A DNA stretch of 12,295 bases from positions 1 to 12,295 of the forward strand of contig JARIET010000052.1 of NCBI GenBank assembly GCA_031127185.1, given 5' to 3'. Origin of the DNA: Gemmatimonadota bacterium (GTDB lineage Bacteria; Gemmatimonadota; Gemmatimonadetes; Gemmatimonadales; Gemmatimonadaceae). Below the pieces are notes generated by a model, which saw only the letters and a list, made by a program, of their open reading frames with translations, ran no database searches and was not told the origin of the DNA. Shown here in pieces: positions 6,978 through 12,295 of the stretch (the stretch's first letter is position 1; the number at the start of each line of letters is the position of its first letter). A program made the translations under genes and the position numbers.

Positions 6978-8174
6978 GTGCCCGGTTCCTCCGTTCCGCT
7001 CTGGCTCCTTGCGACGCTCCCCTGGGTGGCCTTCCCGGTGTTGCTCGCCTGGCGTGGGCGCGAGCGGCGCGACCTAAGCGAGTATGCGGTCGCCGTGCCG
7101 TCGGGCGGCGCGACCGAGCGTGTTTCCGTGGTGATCCCTGCCCGAAACGAGGCGCGCAATATCGAGCCGTGTATGCGGTCCATTCTCGCGACCACCTGGC
7201 CGCAGATGGAGCTCTTGGTCGTCAACGACAACTCCGATGATGGCACCGGAGTCATTGCGCGCCGCGTGGCCGCCGACGACCCACGTGTGACGGTGATCGA
7301 TGCCCCGCCCCTCCCGGCCGGATGGTTCGGCAAACAGTGGGCCTGTCATCAGGCCGTGGTGCAGGCCCGCGGCGGCCTGCTCTTTTTCACGGATGCCGAC
7401 ACGCGGCACCGGCCTGAGCTCATAGCGCGCATGATCGGCGCGATGCGCGCGCGGGGGGCCGATATGCTGAGCATCGCCGGGCAACAGCTCGCGGAGACGT
7501 TCTGGGAGCGGTTGATGCAGCCGCAGTTGTTCACGATGATCGTGCTGCGGTACCGAAGCGTGGAGTGGATGAGCCGGAGCACGAACCCGCTGGACAAGAT
7601 CGTGAACGGGCAGTGCTTCATGCTCTCGCGCGCGGCATATGATGCCGCCGGGGGCCACGAGCGCGTGCGCGAGAATGTGGCCGAGGATCTCCGGATGGCA
7701 CAGGAGGTGTGTCGCACGGGTGGCAGTGTGCAGATGCTGGAGGGCCCCGACTTCATTGCCACGCGGATGTACGAGGGGCTCGGCGAGCTGATGCGCGGCT
7801 GGGGCAAGAACGTCTATGCCGCTGGGCGCGACACGGTGCCGCTGGGCCCGCTGGGTCAGGCGATCCTGCGCGTGGCGTATCCGTGGCCCGCGCTCTGGAA
7901 CGTGGTGCCGTTCGTGGCGGCGGTGCTCGCGATGGCGGGCGTTTTCAGCACCGGCGTACTCTGGTGGGGCCTGATCTGCTATCTGGCGTTTGCGGTGTTC
8001 GAGGTGGCGGTGATGCGCATCAGCCGCGTGTCCATCTGGTATGCCTTTCTGCACCCACTGGCCGGCGTGATGATGTTCGTGCTGTTCGGCCGCGCTGCGT
8101 GGCGTGGGAGCCGCGTGGAGTGGAAGGGGCGCAAGTATCGCTCGGTGGCCGAGTTCGAGAAGGCACGCCCATGA
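6978..8174 (+). CDS. Membrane-bound family 2 glycosyltransferase (CrtQ-like)
   Basis: Inverting GT2 (GT-A fold) enzyme that transfers a sugar from a nucleotide-sugar to a lipid, carotenoid or polysaccharide acceptor. In order: an N-terminal membrane segment (~7-25); the nucleotide-binding start SVVIPARNEARNI (about 50-62) and VVNDNSDDGT (81-90); the metal-binding DxD as D139-A-D141; the acceptor-site ED (236-237) in AEDLRM; and MRGWGKN (272-278), standing in for the QxxRW-type motif. Three C-terminal hydrophobic segments (~297-322, 325-348, 353-377) anchor it, and it ends with a basic tail. The build resembles CrtQ/HpnB-like transferases, but the acceptor cannot be named. The start is GTG at 6978; an in-frame TAG at 6966 excludes anything earlier. 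The stop overlaps the next gene's ATG (ATGA), so it forms an operon with the HAD phosphatase. Confidence 0.9.
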   Translation: MPGSSVPLWLLATLPWVAFPVLLAWRGRERRDLSEYAVAVPSGGATERVSVVIPARNEARNIEPCMRSILATTWPQMELLVVNDNSDDGTGVIARRVAADDPRVTVIDAPPLPAGWFGKQWACHQAVVQARGGLLFFTDADTRHRPELIARMIGAMRARGADMLSIAGQQLAETFWERLMQPQLFTMIVLRYRSVEWMSRSTNPLDKIVNGQCFMLSRAAYDAAGGHERVRENVAEDLRMAQEVCRTGGSVQMLEGPDFIATRMYEGLGELMRGWGKNVYAAGRDTVPLGPLGQAILRVAYPWPALWNVVPFVAAVLAMAGVFSTGVLWWGLICYLAFAVFEVAVMRISRVSIWYAFLHPLAGVMMFVLFGRAAWRGSRVEWKGRKYRSVAEFEKARP

Positions 8175-8842
8175 GCGCACGTACGCGACGACTTCCCGCG
8201 ATTCTCTTCGATATGGACGGTACGCTCCTTGATTCCATCTCGCTGATCGTGGAGAGCGCCGTCTTTGCGTTTGACGGGCGCGAAGGCCCGCGCCCCACGC
8301 GCGCCGAGTGGCAGGCGTTGATTGGCACACCGCTGGATGCGATGCTCAAGCCGTGGTCCGTGAACGAGGCCGATGCCGCATTCGTGAAGGCACGCTATCG
8401 GCAGTTCCAACTGGAGAACCACGACCGGTTCGTGCGACTCTACGACGGCGTCCCCGAGGTACTGGCCGAGTTGCACCAGCGCGGGCACCCGATGGCGATC
8501 GTGAGCAGCAAGCTCGACGTGGGAATCCGGCGCTCGATGGACTACTTCGATCTCACCAAGTATTTCGATGTGATCGTGGGCATCGAGCACACGCAGCACC
8601 ACAAGCCGCATCCGGAGCCGGTGCAGTTCGCGCTCACGAAGCTTGGCGTCGGTGCGAGCGACGCGCTCTTTGTGGGCGACTCGCCGCACGATGTTGAAGC
8701 CGGCAATGCAGCAGGAGTGCCCGTCGTCGCCGTGACGTGGGGCGCCTATACGCGCGAAGAGATCGCACACGCGCGGCCCGCGCACTGGCTCGACACAATG
8801 CCGGATCTGCTGCCTGCAATAGAAAGACTCGCCGTGCAATAG
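8171..8842 (+). CDS. HAD-superfamily phosphatase (Gph/PpaX-like)
   Basis: Cytosolic Mg-dependent phosphatase of the haloacid dehalogenase superfamily, subfamily I with a helical cap. Motif I is DMDGT (nucleophile D14, acid/base D16), motif II Ser112 in IVSSK, motif III Lys145 in HKPHP, and motif IV GDSPHD (169-174, metal ligands D170 and D174). The cap spans about residues 20-90. Length 223 residues matches phosphoglycolate phosphatase (Gph) and pyrophosphatase PpaX relatives; the sequence does not decide between these or a sugar-phosphate substrate. The ATG at 8171 lies within ATGA, overlapping the glycosyltransferase stop, with GAAGG seven bases upstream, so translation should be coupled. 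Pairing with a glycosyltransferase could mean it removes a phosphate from a sugar or lipid intermediate, but this is speculation. No T-rich terminator follows. Confidence 0.9.
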   Translation: MSARTRRLPAILFDMDGTLLDSISLIVESAVFAFDGREGPRPTRAEWQALIGTPLDAMLKPWSVNEADAAFVKARYRQFQLENHDRFVRLYDGVPEVLAELHQRGHPMAIVSSKLDVGIRRSMDYFDLTKYFDVIVGIEHTQHHKPHPEPVQFALTKLGVGASDALFVGDSPHDVEAGNAAGVPVVAVTWGAYTREEIAHARPAHWLDTMPDLLPAIERLAVQ

Positions 8843-8859: not shown

Positions 8860-8888
8860 TCACGCACAGCGACATCATGCGTGCGTGA
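8860..8888. promoter_or_regulatory. Inverted repeat over the methyltransferase start codon
   Basis: TCACGCAC (8860-8867) and GTGCGTGA (8881-8888) are perfect 8-bp inverted copies with a 13-bp spacer; allowing one mismatch the arms extend to ten. The right arm contains the GTG start (8885-8887) of the DNA methyltransferase. In RNA it would be a hairpin hiding the start; in DNA it could be an operator. There is no T-tract, so it is not a normal terminator for the HAD gene. Confidence 0.5.
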
Positions 8889-11800
8889 CCACACTCCGTC
8901 GCTCTGCAGAACTACTCGCGCACGCTGGTTCGCTCCGAGGCGCGGAAGCGATTGCCGCGTTTCTCGGGTTCGGATCGTCCGCGCCGCTTGATGGGGCCGC
9001 GCGCGCCGCCCTTCGACTGACTCCAGGAGTGCGGATCGCCCGGGTCGCTGACAGCGCCGGCTTGTTGCGGTGCTGTATCGTTTCGGCCTCAGGCGACCTG
9101 TCGCTCCGTGCGGTCGCGGCGCAGACCGCGGTGCGCCTGCGCGATCGCGCGCCACACGCGCAATGGCTCGTTATTGGCATGTCGCCCGCAAGTCATTCGG
9201 TCGCGATCGTCGTGGCACCTGCGCAGGGCGAAACGCGGATTGCCACGCTGGTCGTCGACACCAGGCGAGTCCTCGACTCGGACGCCGAGACGCTGGCCGC
9301 CATGGCTGCCGCATGCGGTGCCTCCGACGTGCTCACCCATCAGCGGTGGCGGGAACTCCTCGGACGCGATGCACTTTCGCGGCGATTCTACCGCGAACTC
9401 GAACAGGCGGTCGATACACTCGCCACGACGGCGACTGGTTCCGCACCCGAACCGGCCCGCCGCGAACTCGGCCTGCTCACCACGTCACGCCTGCTCTTTC
9501 TGGCCTTTCTCGAAGCCAAGGGCTGGCTGGACGGAGATCGCGAGTTCCTGCGCCGACATTTTGACGAACGGTGTAGCGCTGGCGGGCAGGTGCATCGACG
9601 CCTGCTCGAGCCGTTGTTCTTCGGTACGCTTAACACGCCGTTCTCCAAACGCGCGGCTGCGGCGCGCCAGTTTGGGCGCATTCCATTCTTGAACGGCGGA
9701 CTCTTCAACCGCACGCCGGTGGAACGTCGCTGGCGTCGGACGACGCTGACGGACGATGCGTTGGGTGGCATCATGGCCGGGCTGCTCGCGCGATATCGCG
9801 TCACCGCCCGCGAGGATTCGACCAACTTGAGCGAAGCCGCGATCGATCCAGAAATGCTGGGTCGCGCATTCGAATCATTGATGGCATCCGACGACCGACG
9901 GAAATCCGGCGCATTCTACACCCCTCGCCCGCTGCTGGAACGGGTTACAGCGGAGGGGATTGATCACTGGCTGTCCACCCTCGGGATCAGCGCGGCATCG
10001 CGCGGCGCAATCGCACACTCGCATCGGCTGCCGGCCGCCGAGCGCCCGGCAGTGCTTGCAGCGATTCGCGACTTGCGCGTCCTCGACCCTGCGTGCGGAA
10101 GCGGTGCCTTCCTGGTGCATGTGCTGGAACGAGTCGCCGACATCGCTGCTGCAGCAGGCGACACGCGCACGGCAAGTGAGCGCCGCCGCGACGTGCTGAC
10201 GCGATCGATCTTTGGCGTGGACATCAATCCGACGGCCGTCTGGCTCTGCGAGCTGCGCCTCTGGCTCTCGGTTGTCATTGACTCGGATGCCACAGACCCG
10301 ATCCGTGTGACTCCACTGCCAAATCTCGATCACAATATCCGGATCGGCGACGCGCTCTCGGGTCGCGCCTTTGACGACGACAGGCATATGGCAGGTGCCG
10401 CAGCCTATGCTCAGCTTCGCGGTCGCTACGTGCGCGCCACGGGCGCTCGCAAACGGACCCTCGCCCGCACGCTCGATGCGGCCATGCGCGCGGAAGCGGT
10501 CAGGCAGGCGGTGCAAGCAACGGACCATAACGCGGCCCGACGCCGCGACCTGATCGTCGCGCTGCGTGGTCGCGACTTGTTTCGCCAACGGATGCGTGCG
10601 GACGCGAAGCAGCGCGAGACACTTGCCACACTCCGCCATCAGGCGCGCGCGCTCCGACGTGAGGTTGCTGCGCTCCGCTCTGGTGCCGCACTGCCATTTG
10701 CATTCCCGACACACTTTGCCGACATCGGCGCCCGCGGCGGATTCGACCTGGTGCTGGGAAATCCGCCCTGGGTGCGACTCCACCGTATCGCTCCTGCAGC
10801 ACGCGCGGCATTCGCGTCTACGTACCAGTGCTGGCGCGATGCAAACTGGACGGATGGCACGCCTGGCGCACAGGGTGGTTCCAGTTTTTCCGCACAGGTT
10901 GACCTCGCGGCGCTCTTCCTGGAGCGCGCAATCCAGCTCACTCGATCCGGCGCCTCTATCAGCCTTCTGGTGCCGGCAAAATTATGGAGTTCCTTGTCGT
11001 CCGGCGGTATCCGCCGTGTGGTCCGCGCGAACTGCCGGATCGCCGTGCTCGAAGACTGGAGTGAATCGCCTGCGGCATTCGATGCTGTGGTATATCCGTC
11101 TTTGATCGTTGCACTGCGTGATGCCAAGCCCGCGGGCCACACAATTCGGGGAGCGGTACACAAGCGTGATTCCGTGGTGACGTGGGAACAACGCGATGAC
11201 CGACTGGCACTCGATCCGTCGGTCGGTGCGCCGTGGCTTCTCGTTCCACCCGAAGTGCGCGCGGCGTTCGAGCTACTCGCTTCACGCGGTGAGCGCCTGA
11301 TCGAAACACATCTCAGCCGCCCACTTCTCGGCGTGAAGACCGGATGCAACGAGGCGTTTCTCGTGACCCCACGACCTGGCTGGCGCGACCCTGCGCCCGT
11401 CGACGGTGACGGCTGGTGCGTGCATGCCAACGGCCGGGATGATGACGTGGAACGTTCCGTCCTGCGACCAGTCGTTCGTGGCGAGGACGTGCGTGCCTGG
11501 TCCCTCAGCGGCGATCAGGCGCTGGTATGGACTCACGGCGCGAATGGCATTCCGCTCGAACGGCTGCCACCGCTCACAAGTCGCTGGCTCATGCCCTGGC
11601 GCCGACGACTTGAAGCCCGCGTTGACGCCACCCGTTCGCGGCACTGGTGGACCCTCTTTCGCACCGAAGCCGCTTCGATGGCGCGACCGCGGGTGGTGTG
11701 GAGCGATATCAGCCGGATCCCGCGTGCAACCGTGCTGCTTCCCGGCGATCCCACCGTTCCGTTGAACACCTGCTATGTGCTGCCAACCCCAACGATTGAC

Positions 11801-12088
11801 GATGCGCTTGCGTTTGCTGCCTTACTCAACTCACCACCGGTTGCGGCCTGGCTTTGTGCCGTCGCAGAACCGGCACGAGGCGGCTATCGGAGATTCCTCG
11901 GGTGGACCCTCTCGAGGCTCCCGGTGCCCCGGCCGTGGAACAAAGCGGTGGACATTCTGGCGCCACTCGGCCGTCGGGCCATGCATGGGGATGGCCCGGA
12001 CCCGTTCACTCTGTCCTCGGCCGTCGCCCGGGCGTACGGGACTCGGTTGGCACGACTCGAACCGCTGCTCACCTGGTGTCTGCGCTAG
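8885..12088 (+). CDS. Eco57I/type IIG-like N6-adenine DNA methyltransferase
   Basis: Methylates adenine at N6 in a specific DNA site using S-adenosylmethionine, probably marking self DNA in a restriction or defence system. Motifs in order: GRAFESLM (~321-328); the GAFYTP motif (342-347) before the SAM site; motif I DPACGSG (401-407); FGVDINP (443-449), whose D446 should bind the SAM ribose; catalytic NPPW (626-629). An Arg-rich, mostly helical stretch (~511-598) separates these last two. From about residue 800 a TaqI-type target-recognition region follows (GVKTG, LRPVVRGEDV, LNSPP, LSRLPVP). FLNGGLFN near residue 270 is shared with type IIG and BREX/DISARM methylases. I see no clear PD-(D/E)xK nuclease in residues 1-200. 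At 1067 residues it is in the range of PglX/DrmMI/type IIG proteins. The GTG start lacks a good ribosome site. It contains two TTA codons (10982, 11822), unusual in such GC-rich DNA. The next gene overlaps its end. Confidence 0.9.
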   Translation: MTTLRRSAELLAHAGSLRGAEAIAAFLGFGSSAPLDGAARAALRLTPGVRIARVADSAGLLRCCIVSASGDLSLRAVAAQTAVRLRDRAPHAQWLVIGMSPASHSVAIVVAPAQGETRIATLVVDTRRVLDSDAETLAAMAAACGASDVLTHQRWRELLGRDALSRRFYRELEQAVDTLATTATGSAPEPARRELGLLTTSRLLFLAFLEAKGWLDGDREFLRRHFDERCSAGGQVHRRLLEPLFFGTLNTPFSKRAAAARQFGRIPFLNGGLFNRTPVERRWRRTTLTDDALGGIMAGLLARYRVTAREDSTNLSEAAIDPEMLGRAFESLMASDDRRKSGAFYTPRPLLERVTAEGIDHWLSTLGISAASRGAIAHSHRLPAAERPAVLAAIRDLRVLDPACGSGAFLVHVLERVADIAAAAGDTRTASERRRDVLTRSIFGVDINPTAVWLCELRLWLSVVIDSDATDPIRVTPLPNLDHNIRIGDALSGRAFDDDRHMAGAAAYAQLRGRYVRATGARKRTLARTLDAAMRAEAVRQAVQATDHNAARRRDLIVALRGRDLFRQRMRADAKQRETLATLRHQARALRREVAALRSGAALPFAFPTHFADIGARGGFDLVLGNPPWVRLHRIAPAARAAFASTYQCWRDANWTDGTPGAQGGSSFSAQVDLAALFLERAIQLTRSGASISLLVPAKLWSSLSSGGIRRVVRANCRIAVLEDWSESPAAFDAVVYPSLIVALRDAKPAGHTIRGAVHKRDSVVTWEQRDDRLALDPSVGAPWLLVPPEVRAAFELLASRGERLIETHLSRPLLGVKTGCNEAFLVTPRPGWRDPAPVDGDGWCVHANGRDDDVERSVLRPVVRGEDVRAWSLSGDQALVWTHGANGIPLERLPPLTSRWLMPWRRRLEARVDATRSRHWWTLFRTEAASMARPRVVWSDISRIPRATVLLPGDPTVPLNTCYVLPTPTIDDALAFAALLNSPPVAAWLCAVAEPARGGYRRFLGWTLSRLPVPRPWNKAVDILAPLGRRAMHGDGPDPFTLSSAVARAYGTRLARLEPLLTWCLR

Positions 12089-12295
12089 ACGACGTGCTCG
12101 ACGCGTTGGCCCGCACCCACGGTGATGGGTCAGCCATCGCAGAGCAACTCGGCGAGATTGCGCTCCTGCCCCAGCAACGCGATGCGGCCGCCCACTTGCG
12201 TACGGCGCTGGGCGAATTTGGCGGCGCGCTACTCGCGGACGACCCCGGAATGGGAAAGACCTACGTTGCGCTTGCCGTGGCGGCGGAGCTGGGGC
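12076..12295 (+). CDS. SNF2-like helicase, N-terminal fragment (cut by right edge)
   Basis: Only 73 codons are visible. LLPQQRDAAAHLR (30-42) resembles the Q-motif region before motif I of SNF2/superfamily 2 helicases, and ALLADDPGMGKT (51-62) is a Walker A in the position of the SNF2 sequence LADExGLGKT, with K61 and T62 to bind ATP. SNF2-like proteins use ATP to move along duplex DNA; beside a type IIG-like methylase this suggests a translocase subunit of a defence complex. The GTG start at 12076 overlaps the methyltransferase end by 13 bases. A second GTG at 12094 would give a small overlap-free start six residues later; neither has a clear ribosome site. The rest of the gene, including any fused nuclease, is outside the window, so the family call is likely but not firm. 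Confidence 0.75.
   Translation, partial: MSALDDVLDALARTHGDGSAIAEQLGEIALLPQQRDAAAHLRTALGEFGGALLADDPGMGKTYVALAVAAELG

Follow-up and report, generated by a model that had tools for sequence, protein, structure and literature searches.

The gene pair at the contig end

The window analysed here is the whole of contig JARIET010000052.1 (12,295 bp) from a member of the Gemmatimonadaceae (order Gemmatimonadales, phylum Gemmatimonadota; assembly GCA_031127185.1). It closes with a gene pair, an adenine DNA methylase followed by an SNF2-like helicase that runs off the contig. The initial annotation had described a 1067-residue Eco57I-like methylase overlapping by 13 bases an SNF2-like helicase with the motif ADDPGMGKT, and the open reading frames (ORFs), Pfam and motifs agree with this description. 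The features of the pair are:

8885–12088, + strand: adenine DNA methylase of the Eco57I/N6_Mtase type (1067 aa; GTG start; stop codon TAG at 12086–12088)
8885–9364, + strand: N-terminal alpha/beta domain of the methylase (N-domain, residues 1–160), without a conserved D...ExK
9365–9889, + strand: helical spacer, MmeI/BrxX-like (residues 161–335; MmeI_hel 18.6 bits, below its cut-off)
10085–10105, + strand: S-adenosylmethionine (SAM)-binding motif DPACGSG (residues 401–407), invariant or nearly so in 58 sequences
10760–10771, + strand: catalytic motif NPPW (residues 626–629), invariant in 58 sequences
11195–11914, + strand: target recognition region (residues 771–1010, approximate borders), from a sequence match to M.BseCI/CamA, plus fold
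12076–12295, + strand: N-terminal 73 residues of an SNF2-like helicase truncated at the contig end (68.5 bits against the family profile)
12235–12261, + strand: Walker A motif ADDPGMGKT, within the helicase frame

Pfam recognized the window methylase through Eco57I (64.4 bits) and N6_Mtase (31.5 bits), each over its cut-off. In extended form the SAM motif reads DPACGSGAF, and it and NPPW are invariant or nearly so across the 58 aligned sequences, which were drawn from high-scoring relatives, so that conservation in this alignment leans high. Fold searching returned CamA as the closest solved structure, and placed the start of the BrxX and MmeI alignments at residue 163. In MmeI the nuclease occupies the N-terminal position, and the window methylase differs from such type IIG/IIL enzymes in its N-domain, for which the initial annotation had reported no visible nuclease motif. 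The alignment bears this out: no E or K in residues 1–160 is conserved at ≥80%, and the charged or polar positions kept at that level are R5, D36, R62, R75, R88, R118, D133, D148 and H152. A nuclease inside the N-domain was rejected on this ground; the whole-protein fold search barely covers these residues. A weak hhalign match links the domain to its counterpart in four plasmid methylases (probability 48.7, E 1.8e-4, without a shuffle control).

Both the window and the locus extracted around the methylase (L033) stop at position 12295, leaving 73 helicase residues visible. Alone, this fragment scores 13.9 bits against SNF2-rel_dom, below the Pfam cut-off of 24.9; the family profile that it matches was built from full-length helicases found behind the methylase in relatives, and SNF2-rel_dom and Helicase_C were present in five of five full-length relatives scanned. 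The GTG at 12076 is a possible start and would give the 13-base overlap with the end of the methylase stop codon. In 34 of the 36 loci having both genes, the helicase frame continues without interruption past the methylase stop, and the overlapping arrangement thus goes beyond chance. A nuclease in the helicase C-terminus was also considered and rejected, as the conserved positions there (among them K494, E509, W518, W601, R640 and E663) do not point to a nuclease motif, in a region that is barely covered by the fold search.

Distribution and inheritance of the pair

The pair is widespread in the order. Among 288 genomes of the order (159 rated good; 79 genera), the methylase profile (threshold E 1e-50) matched 246 genomes, 143 of the good ones and 75 genera, and the helicase profile (E 1e-30) matched 239, 139 and 73, respectively. 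A hand count over both listings gave 236 genomes with both genes, 39 with neither, 10 with the methylase alone and three with the helicase alone; misses include contig-edge cases, such as the helicase of the window's own genome and the methylase of genome G126. The restriction gene hsdR, used as a control (E 1e-30), was found in 45 of the 288 genomes (27 over its cut-off), 31 of the good ones and 24 genera. A phylum-wide draw of 395 genomes returned 218 methylase matches, of which 202 came from the order and 16 from other families of the class (nine from f4, six from f9 and one from f5).

Gene order is also well kept. Adjacency was read from the listed match places, which cover 149 of the 246 genomes for the methylase and 150 of the 239 for the helicase, with 135 genomes common to both; 12 of these have the two genes on separate contigs. 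Among the matches listed, the helicase follows the methylase on the same strand within 1.5 kb in 122 of the 123 genomes that carry both on one contig, in line with an alternative offered in the initial annotation, that the genes could be a two-gene system. Seven of the 122 adjacent pairs have 790–1347 bases between the match edges, the listed methylase match being partial in six and complete in G259. The sole exception to adjacency, G103, has a methylase split by an insertion (loci L095/L096). This element of about 11.6 kb lies near methylase residue 997, has inverted-repeat-like ends, a repeated flank and a 1025-aa ORF, and is probably a transposon.

One scan of genome contigs recovered 23 loci at 46–62% identity, 22 of them titled Gemmatimonadetes, Gemmatimonadaceae or Gemmatimonas. 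With simple ORF calls in these relatives, a helicase frame with a Walker A motif lies behind the methylase in 19; of the other four, L015 has a broken methylase, and L019, L021 and L024 meet contig ends. The remaining one of the 23, L018, is titled Candidatus Kuenenia stuttgartiensis yet is of the Gemmatimonadota type, and is likely a misbinned contig, because it has the same glycosyltransferase and HAD phosphatase neighbours.

To compare gene histories, we used the 22 of 30 genomes with rpoB, methylase and helicase (seven gave no rpoB, and in G358 rpoB was in pieces). Patristic distances were correlated between rpoB and methylase (Mantel r = 0.87), rpoB and helicase (0.88), and methylase and helicase (0.91; P = 0.001 each, 999 permutations), and each comparison of the three trees had 13 of 19 splits in common. 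As drawn, both the methylase tree and the rpoB tree group the members of f1, f2, f4 and f9 by family.

The recognition region appears to have been held as steadily as the rest of the enzyme. Its mean identity within f1 is 0.58, compared with 0.54 and 0.54 in the two catalytic halves; the corresponding values are 0.38 versus 0.41 and 0.38 between f1 and f2, and 0.39 versus 0.37 and 0.40 between f1 and f9. By contrast, identity among four plasmid relatives, of which two are close, falls to 0.29 in the recognition region versus 0.66 and 0.44 in the catalytic halves. Since the region in the order is as similar as the catalytic halves, unlike that of the plasmid relatives, these values suggest that a single recognition sequence has been kept across the order.

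Nonetheless, some good genomes are without the pair, and it is therefore dispensable rather than essential. Flanking genes were sought in 19 genomes, and the stretches were read for G087, G103, G124, G126, G134, G135, G174, G203, G222 and G250. The pair is missing from G134, with about 1.5 kb in between; the methylase match breaks off early in G135 and G222; G203 offers two short contigs and G087 the HAD gene only; and in G126 the methylase is present at a contig edge. In L015 and L100 (genome G135) the methylase match ends after about residue 570 though the contig continues, with no helicase behind, which is a lineage losing the pair. Genome G174 (L097; 7.5 Mb, completeness rated at 100%) retains a methylase that extends to about residue 1026, and gave neither a helicase nor a HAD match. 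Fourteen good genomes are listed as methylase-less (including the edge miss G126), seven of which are ≤2.6 Mb (G124, G223, G237, G238, G243, G250 and G087); loss of the pair may go with genome reduction, a trend noted without a statistical test.

Relatives, known systems and the proposed loss of a nuclease

Remote methylase relatives were found in 146 of 72,556 plasmid records, all at <60% identity, with three covering at least 80% of the query; two Nostoc plasmid methylases cover 84–88% of it at 25–26% identity. Seven plasmid stretches (Nostoc twice, Planktothrix, Deinococcus, Thermus, Allomeiothermus and Thermococcus) carry a methylase upstream of a helicase of about 1100 residues, with one to three annotated genes in between. 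Methylase homology was established by search match for Nostoc, Deinococcus and Planktothrix (window query) and Thermus (query L050); the Allomeiothermus and Thermococcus loci were located via the helicase, and there the identity of the methylase follows the annotation. The annotated methylases of Thermus (744 aa), Allomeiothermus (787 aa) and Thermococcus (988 aa) are shorter. A Halolamina plasmid stretch that was also read has the methylase and no such helicase.

The plasmid helicases start with an HKD domain (PLDc_2 in four of four scanned; all seven have the motif's H, K and GSSN), and the best PADLOC model for the two scanned was C3a139 'HKD+Snf2'. These operons resemble the window pair in having a homologous methylase upstream of an SNF2 helicase with a homologous SNF2 core; they differ in the HKD nuclease domain on the helicase and in the one to three genes in between, neither of which the window pair has. 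The middle genes vary (L103–L105 and L107–L110), encoding GmrSD, AbiEii, sigma-70 or unknown proteins of 400–440 aa, and a viperin gene is found close to one Nostoc copy. HKD or SWI2/SNF2 helicases occur in restriction operons (PMC2292703, PMC10853773), and the plasmid operons may be a defence family.

No HKD nuclease domain was seen on or beside the helicase in the order. An HKD-like domain was found only in f4, a family of the same class, where it comes after the methylase and before the helicase; it forms a separate ORF in five loci and a fusion with the helicase in two. Aligned to the plasmid HKD domain with hhalign, it gave a probability of 95.8, E 8e-9 and a score of 62.5 over 170 columns, compared with a best score of 20.2 in 100 column shuffles (an earlier comparison with two f4 sequences only was weaker, at a probability of 46–56; f4 genomes G291 and G422 had methylase matches and were left out of the domain comparison). 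None of the seven f4 copies has an HxK or GSxN motif: in the joint alignment the HAK columns are gapped, and GSSN reads GA/P-H/L-Y/F. In f9 the Walker A motif lies 225–237 residues in, behind an N-terminal extension that has no HxK in any of four copies. A fossil HKD domain in f9 was considered and dropped, as the extension did not match the plasmid HKD domains significantly (score 17.0, E 0.11); against the f4 domain it reached a score of 28.3 (E 0.0016, probability 15.9; best of 100 shuffles 21.2), which is no more than suggestive of a relationship. Within the order, helicase genes begin at or close to the methylase stop, either overlapping the methylase or abutting it, and reach Walker A after about 40–95 residues; these loci therefore leave no room for an HKD domain. 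Stepwise loss of the nuclease would be the simplest history, its direction being inferred from this distribution rather than from a rooted whole-family tree.

By family score, the methylase is closest to the type IIG model (124 bits), ahead of DrmMI (108.6 bits) and PglX (66.1 bits), and the helicase to DpdE, DrmD and BrxH, with HmaA also remote. Such remote scores could be expected if a standard DISARM, BREX or Hma/BR cluster had its left end in the window, an alternative that the neighbourhoods largely refute and that we consider highly improbable. NCBIfam BREX scores reached ≤61.7 bits against cut-offs of 400–900, and no PglZ, BrxC, DrmA, DrmB or DUF499 protein was found among the 19 neighbours scanned in all for DISARM, BREX and BR/Hma components (the window locus itself ending at 12295). 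Nor were drmA, drmB or drmC seen beside the pair, with no PADLOC match in ten downstream neighbours and with NUDIX, MntH, S66 peptidase and glycosyltransferase genes upstream. The view in the initial annotation that the gene order does not by itself match DISARM or BREX thus holds for the neighbours scanned. Class 1 DISARM and ARMADA, the latter described in PMC12458937, likewise combine a methylase with a RapA/SNF2-like helicase, but the neighbours scanned here included no YprA/DrmA-like helicase, DUF1998 protein or PLD gene. The BREX-related BR/Hma systems also share an SNF2 helicase and an N6-methylase with the pair, but are tripartite, with a DUF499 ATPase, and their type-2 helicases are mostly HKD-bearing (PMC12839542); in the main text of that paper the word 'Gemmatimonad' does not occur.

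The pair looks more like an orphan core-genome methylase, of which CcrM is one: no cognate nuclease was found for it (one elsewhere in the genome being possible), it is present in most of the clade, and it is inherited vertically. CamA, an orphan methylase that every sequenced C. difficile genome encodes (PMC8187626), has chains of about 577 aa, and the window methylase differs from it in its extra N-domain and spacer and in the dedicated SNF2 helicase.

Taken together, the prevalence of the pair, the agreement between the trees, the retention of the recognition region and the chromosomal locus (described below) lead us to favour, with a probability of roughly 55%, a vertically inherited two-gene methylation module with its own translocase, descended from a restriction-like system that lost its nuclease. 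The ancestor would have combined a methylase with an HKD nuclease–SNF2 helicase. The present methylase would be a sequence-specific N6-adenine enzyme that methylates adenines within a single conserved recognition sequence, and the SNF2-type protein an ATP-driven translocase on double-strand DNA that works on the DNA being marked, either clearing bound proteins to give the methylase access or moving the complex along. The mark would serve chromosome biology (expression, or the timing of replication or repair) rather than the cutting of foreign DNA.

The main rival is an antiphage system without its own nuclease, in which the methylase would mark self and the translocase would attack incoming unmethylated DNA, stripping proteins from it or blocking replication. 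We regard this as somewhat unlikely. It would account for the closest family scores, all to restriction or defence proteins, for the resemblance of the homologous plasmid operons to restriction systems and for the clean loss of the pair in some genomes. It is harder to reconcile with a methylase present in 143 of the 159 good genomes, with rpoB-like trees, with a recognition region that is not diversified within the order, with scanned neighbours that are not defence genes and with a phage search that gave a single remote match in 50,697 records (42% of the query, 22.8% identity). The label of defence locus given in the initial annotation is weakened accordingly, the pair being found in most genomes, unlike hsdR, and at a fixed site among housekeeping genes.

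Several points weigh against a methylation module. The control for prevalence consisted of hsdR as the sole restriction gene. Six of the 19 splits differ from rpoB, split support is unassessed, and several methylase or helicase sequences are partial. Sixteen of the 159 good genomes score as methylase-less, one of them (G126) as a contig-edge miss, and G124 and G250 have empty sites at the same locus, with the HAD gene adjoining genes that elsewhere follow the pair. Between f1 and f4 the recognition region falls behind (0.31 versus 0.36 and 0.43 in the catalytic halves), and the target may have changed between these families; fully invariant columns are also rarer there (15 of 240, versus 38 of 305 in the catalytic halves; phylum sample). 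The f4 fossil depends on one profile comparison, as Pfam detects a PLD domain neither in any of the seven f4 proteins nor in the one f9 protein scanned. Finally, a constantly useful defence gene could be kept vertically too.

More tentatively still, the methylation module could be part of a constitutive epigenetic system run by the whole order, in which a fixed-specificity adenine methylase and a dedicated SNF2 remodeller, derived from a mobile restriction system by stepwise nuclease loss, would form a bacterial analogue of the DDM1/HELLS pairing of plants and animals, DDM1/HELLS being partners of DNA methyltransferases (PMC10538959). If so, this order of Gemmatimonadota would have a core epigenetic system with a motor, and none is described in the literature searched, which lay mostly outside subscription papers and held no paper on this pair as judged by titles and the starts of abstracts. 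Scans of gene content would label the pair a defence locus, yet it behaves as a core gene pair. Intermediates within one class, first an HKD-like domain without active residues and then none, would make the change from restriction to marking traceable.

Genomic setting

The pair sits at a fixed chromosomal locus among housekeeping genes. Two further features of the window belong to this setting:

8171–8842, + strand: HAD phosphatase, PpaX-like (PpaX 174.5 bits, under the cut-off of 218)
6978–8174, + strand: family 2 glycosyltransferase, a syntenic flank outside the pair

Neighbours were counted in the 41 loci longer than 6.5 kb from L002–L024 and L041–L060, short loci being left out. The glycosyltransferase lies upstream of the methylase in 19 of the 41 and a NUDIX gene in 21; further upstream recur an Nramp/MntH transporter (14), an iron-dependent repressor (15), a rhodanese (16) and an S66 peptidase (12).

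The initial annotation had expected an effector to the right of the pair. This was not borne out in relatives: ten downstream neighbours from five loci gave no PADLOC match, and the sole frequent close neighbour is the PpaX-like HAD phosphatase. Its remark that no other component lies upstream requires correction, since in the window the HAD gene, on the same strand, ends 42 bases before the methylase and is a frequent neighbour of the pair. This gene was found near the pair in 23 of the 41 loci: six have it upstream, like the window, and 17 downstream, with 12 of the latter placing it within 125 bases of the helicase match (a same-strand match was preferred where there were several). As it was not found in 18 of the 41, some of them cut by contig ends, we rejected it as a third component and keep it as an associated gene; it is probably not an obligatory part of the pair. 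The initial annotation had also held that housekeeping genes downstream together with a stand-alone helicase would speak against its reading; the downstream genes in relatives' loci do look ordinary, but the helicase is not stand-alone.

It is also conceivable that the pair still cuts DNA through a nuclease that is encoded at another site in the genome and acts in trans, which we think improbable. Split effectors are known: where type-2 BR loci are without the HKD–helicase fusion, auxiliary nucleases are reported next to them (PMC12839542). Against this stand the downstream neighbours without a PADLOC match, and no nuclease was seen among the recurrent neighbours identified, no genome-wide search for nuclease co-occurrence having been made.

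The remainder of the window holds ordinary genes. On the minus strand, positions 1–927 encode a protein-kinase-like N-terminus that is truncated where the contig begins, followed by peptidase-like and PAP2-like ORFs (all three judged by eye), a NUDIX gene and a dicarboxylate symporter.

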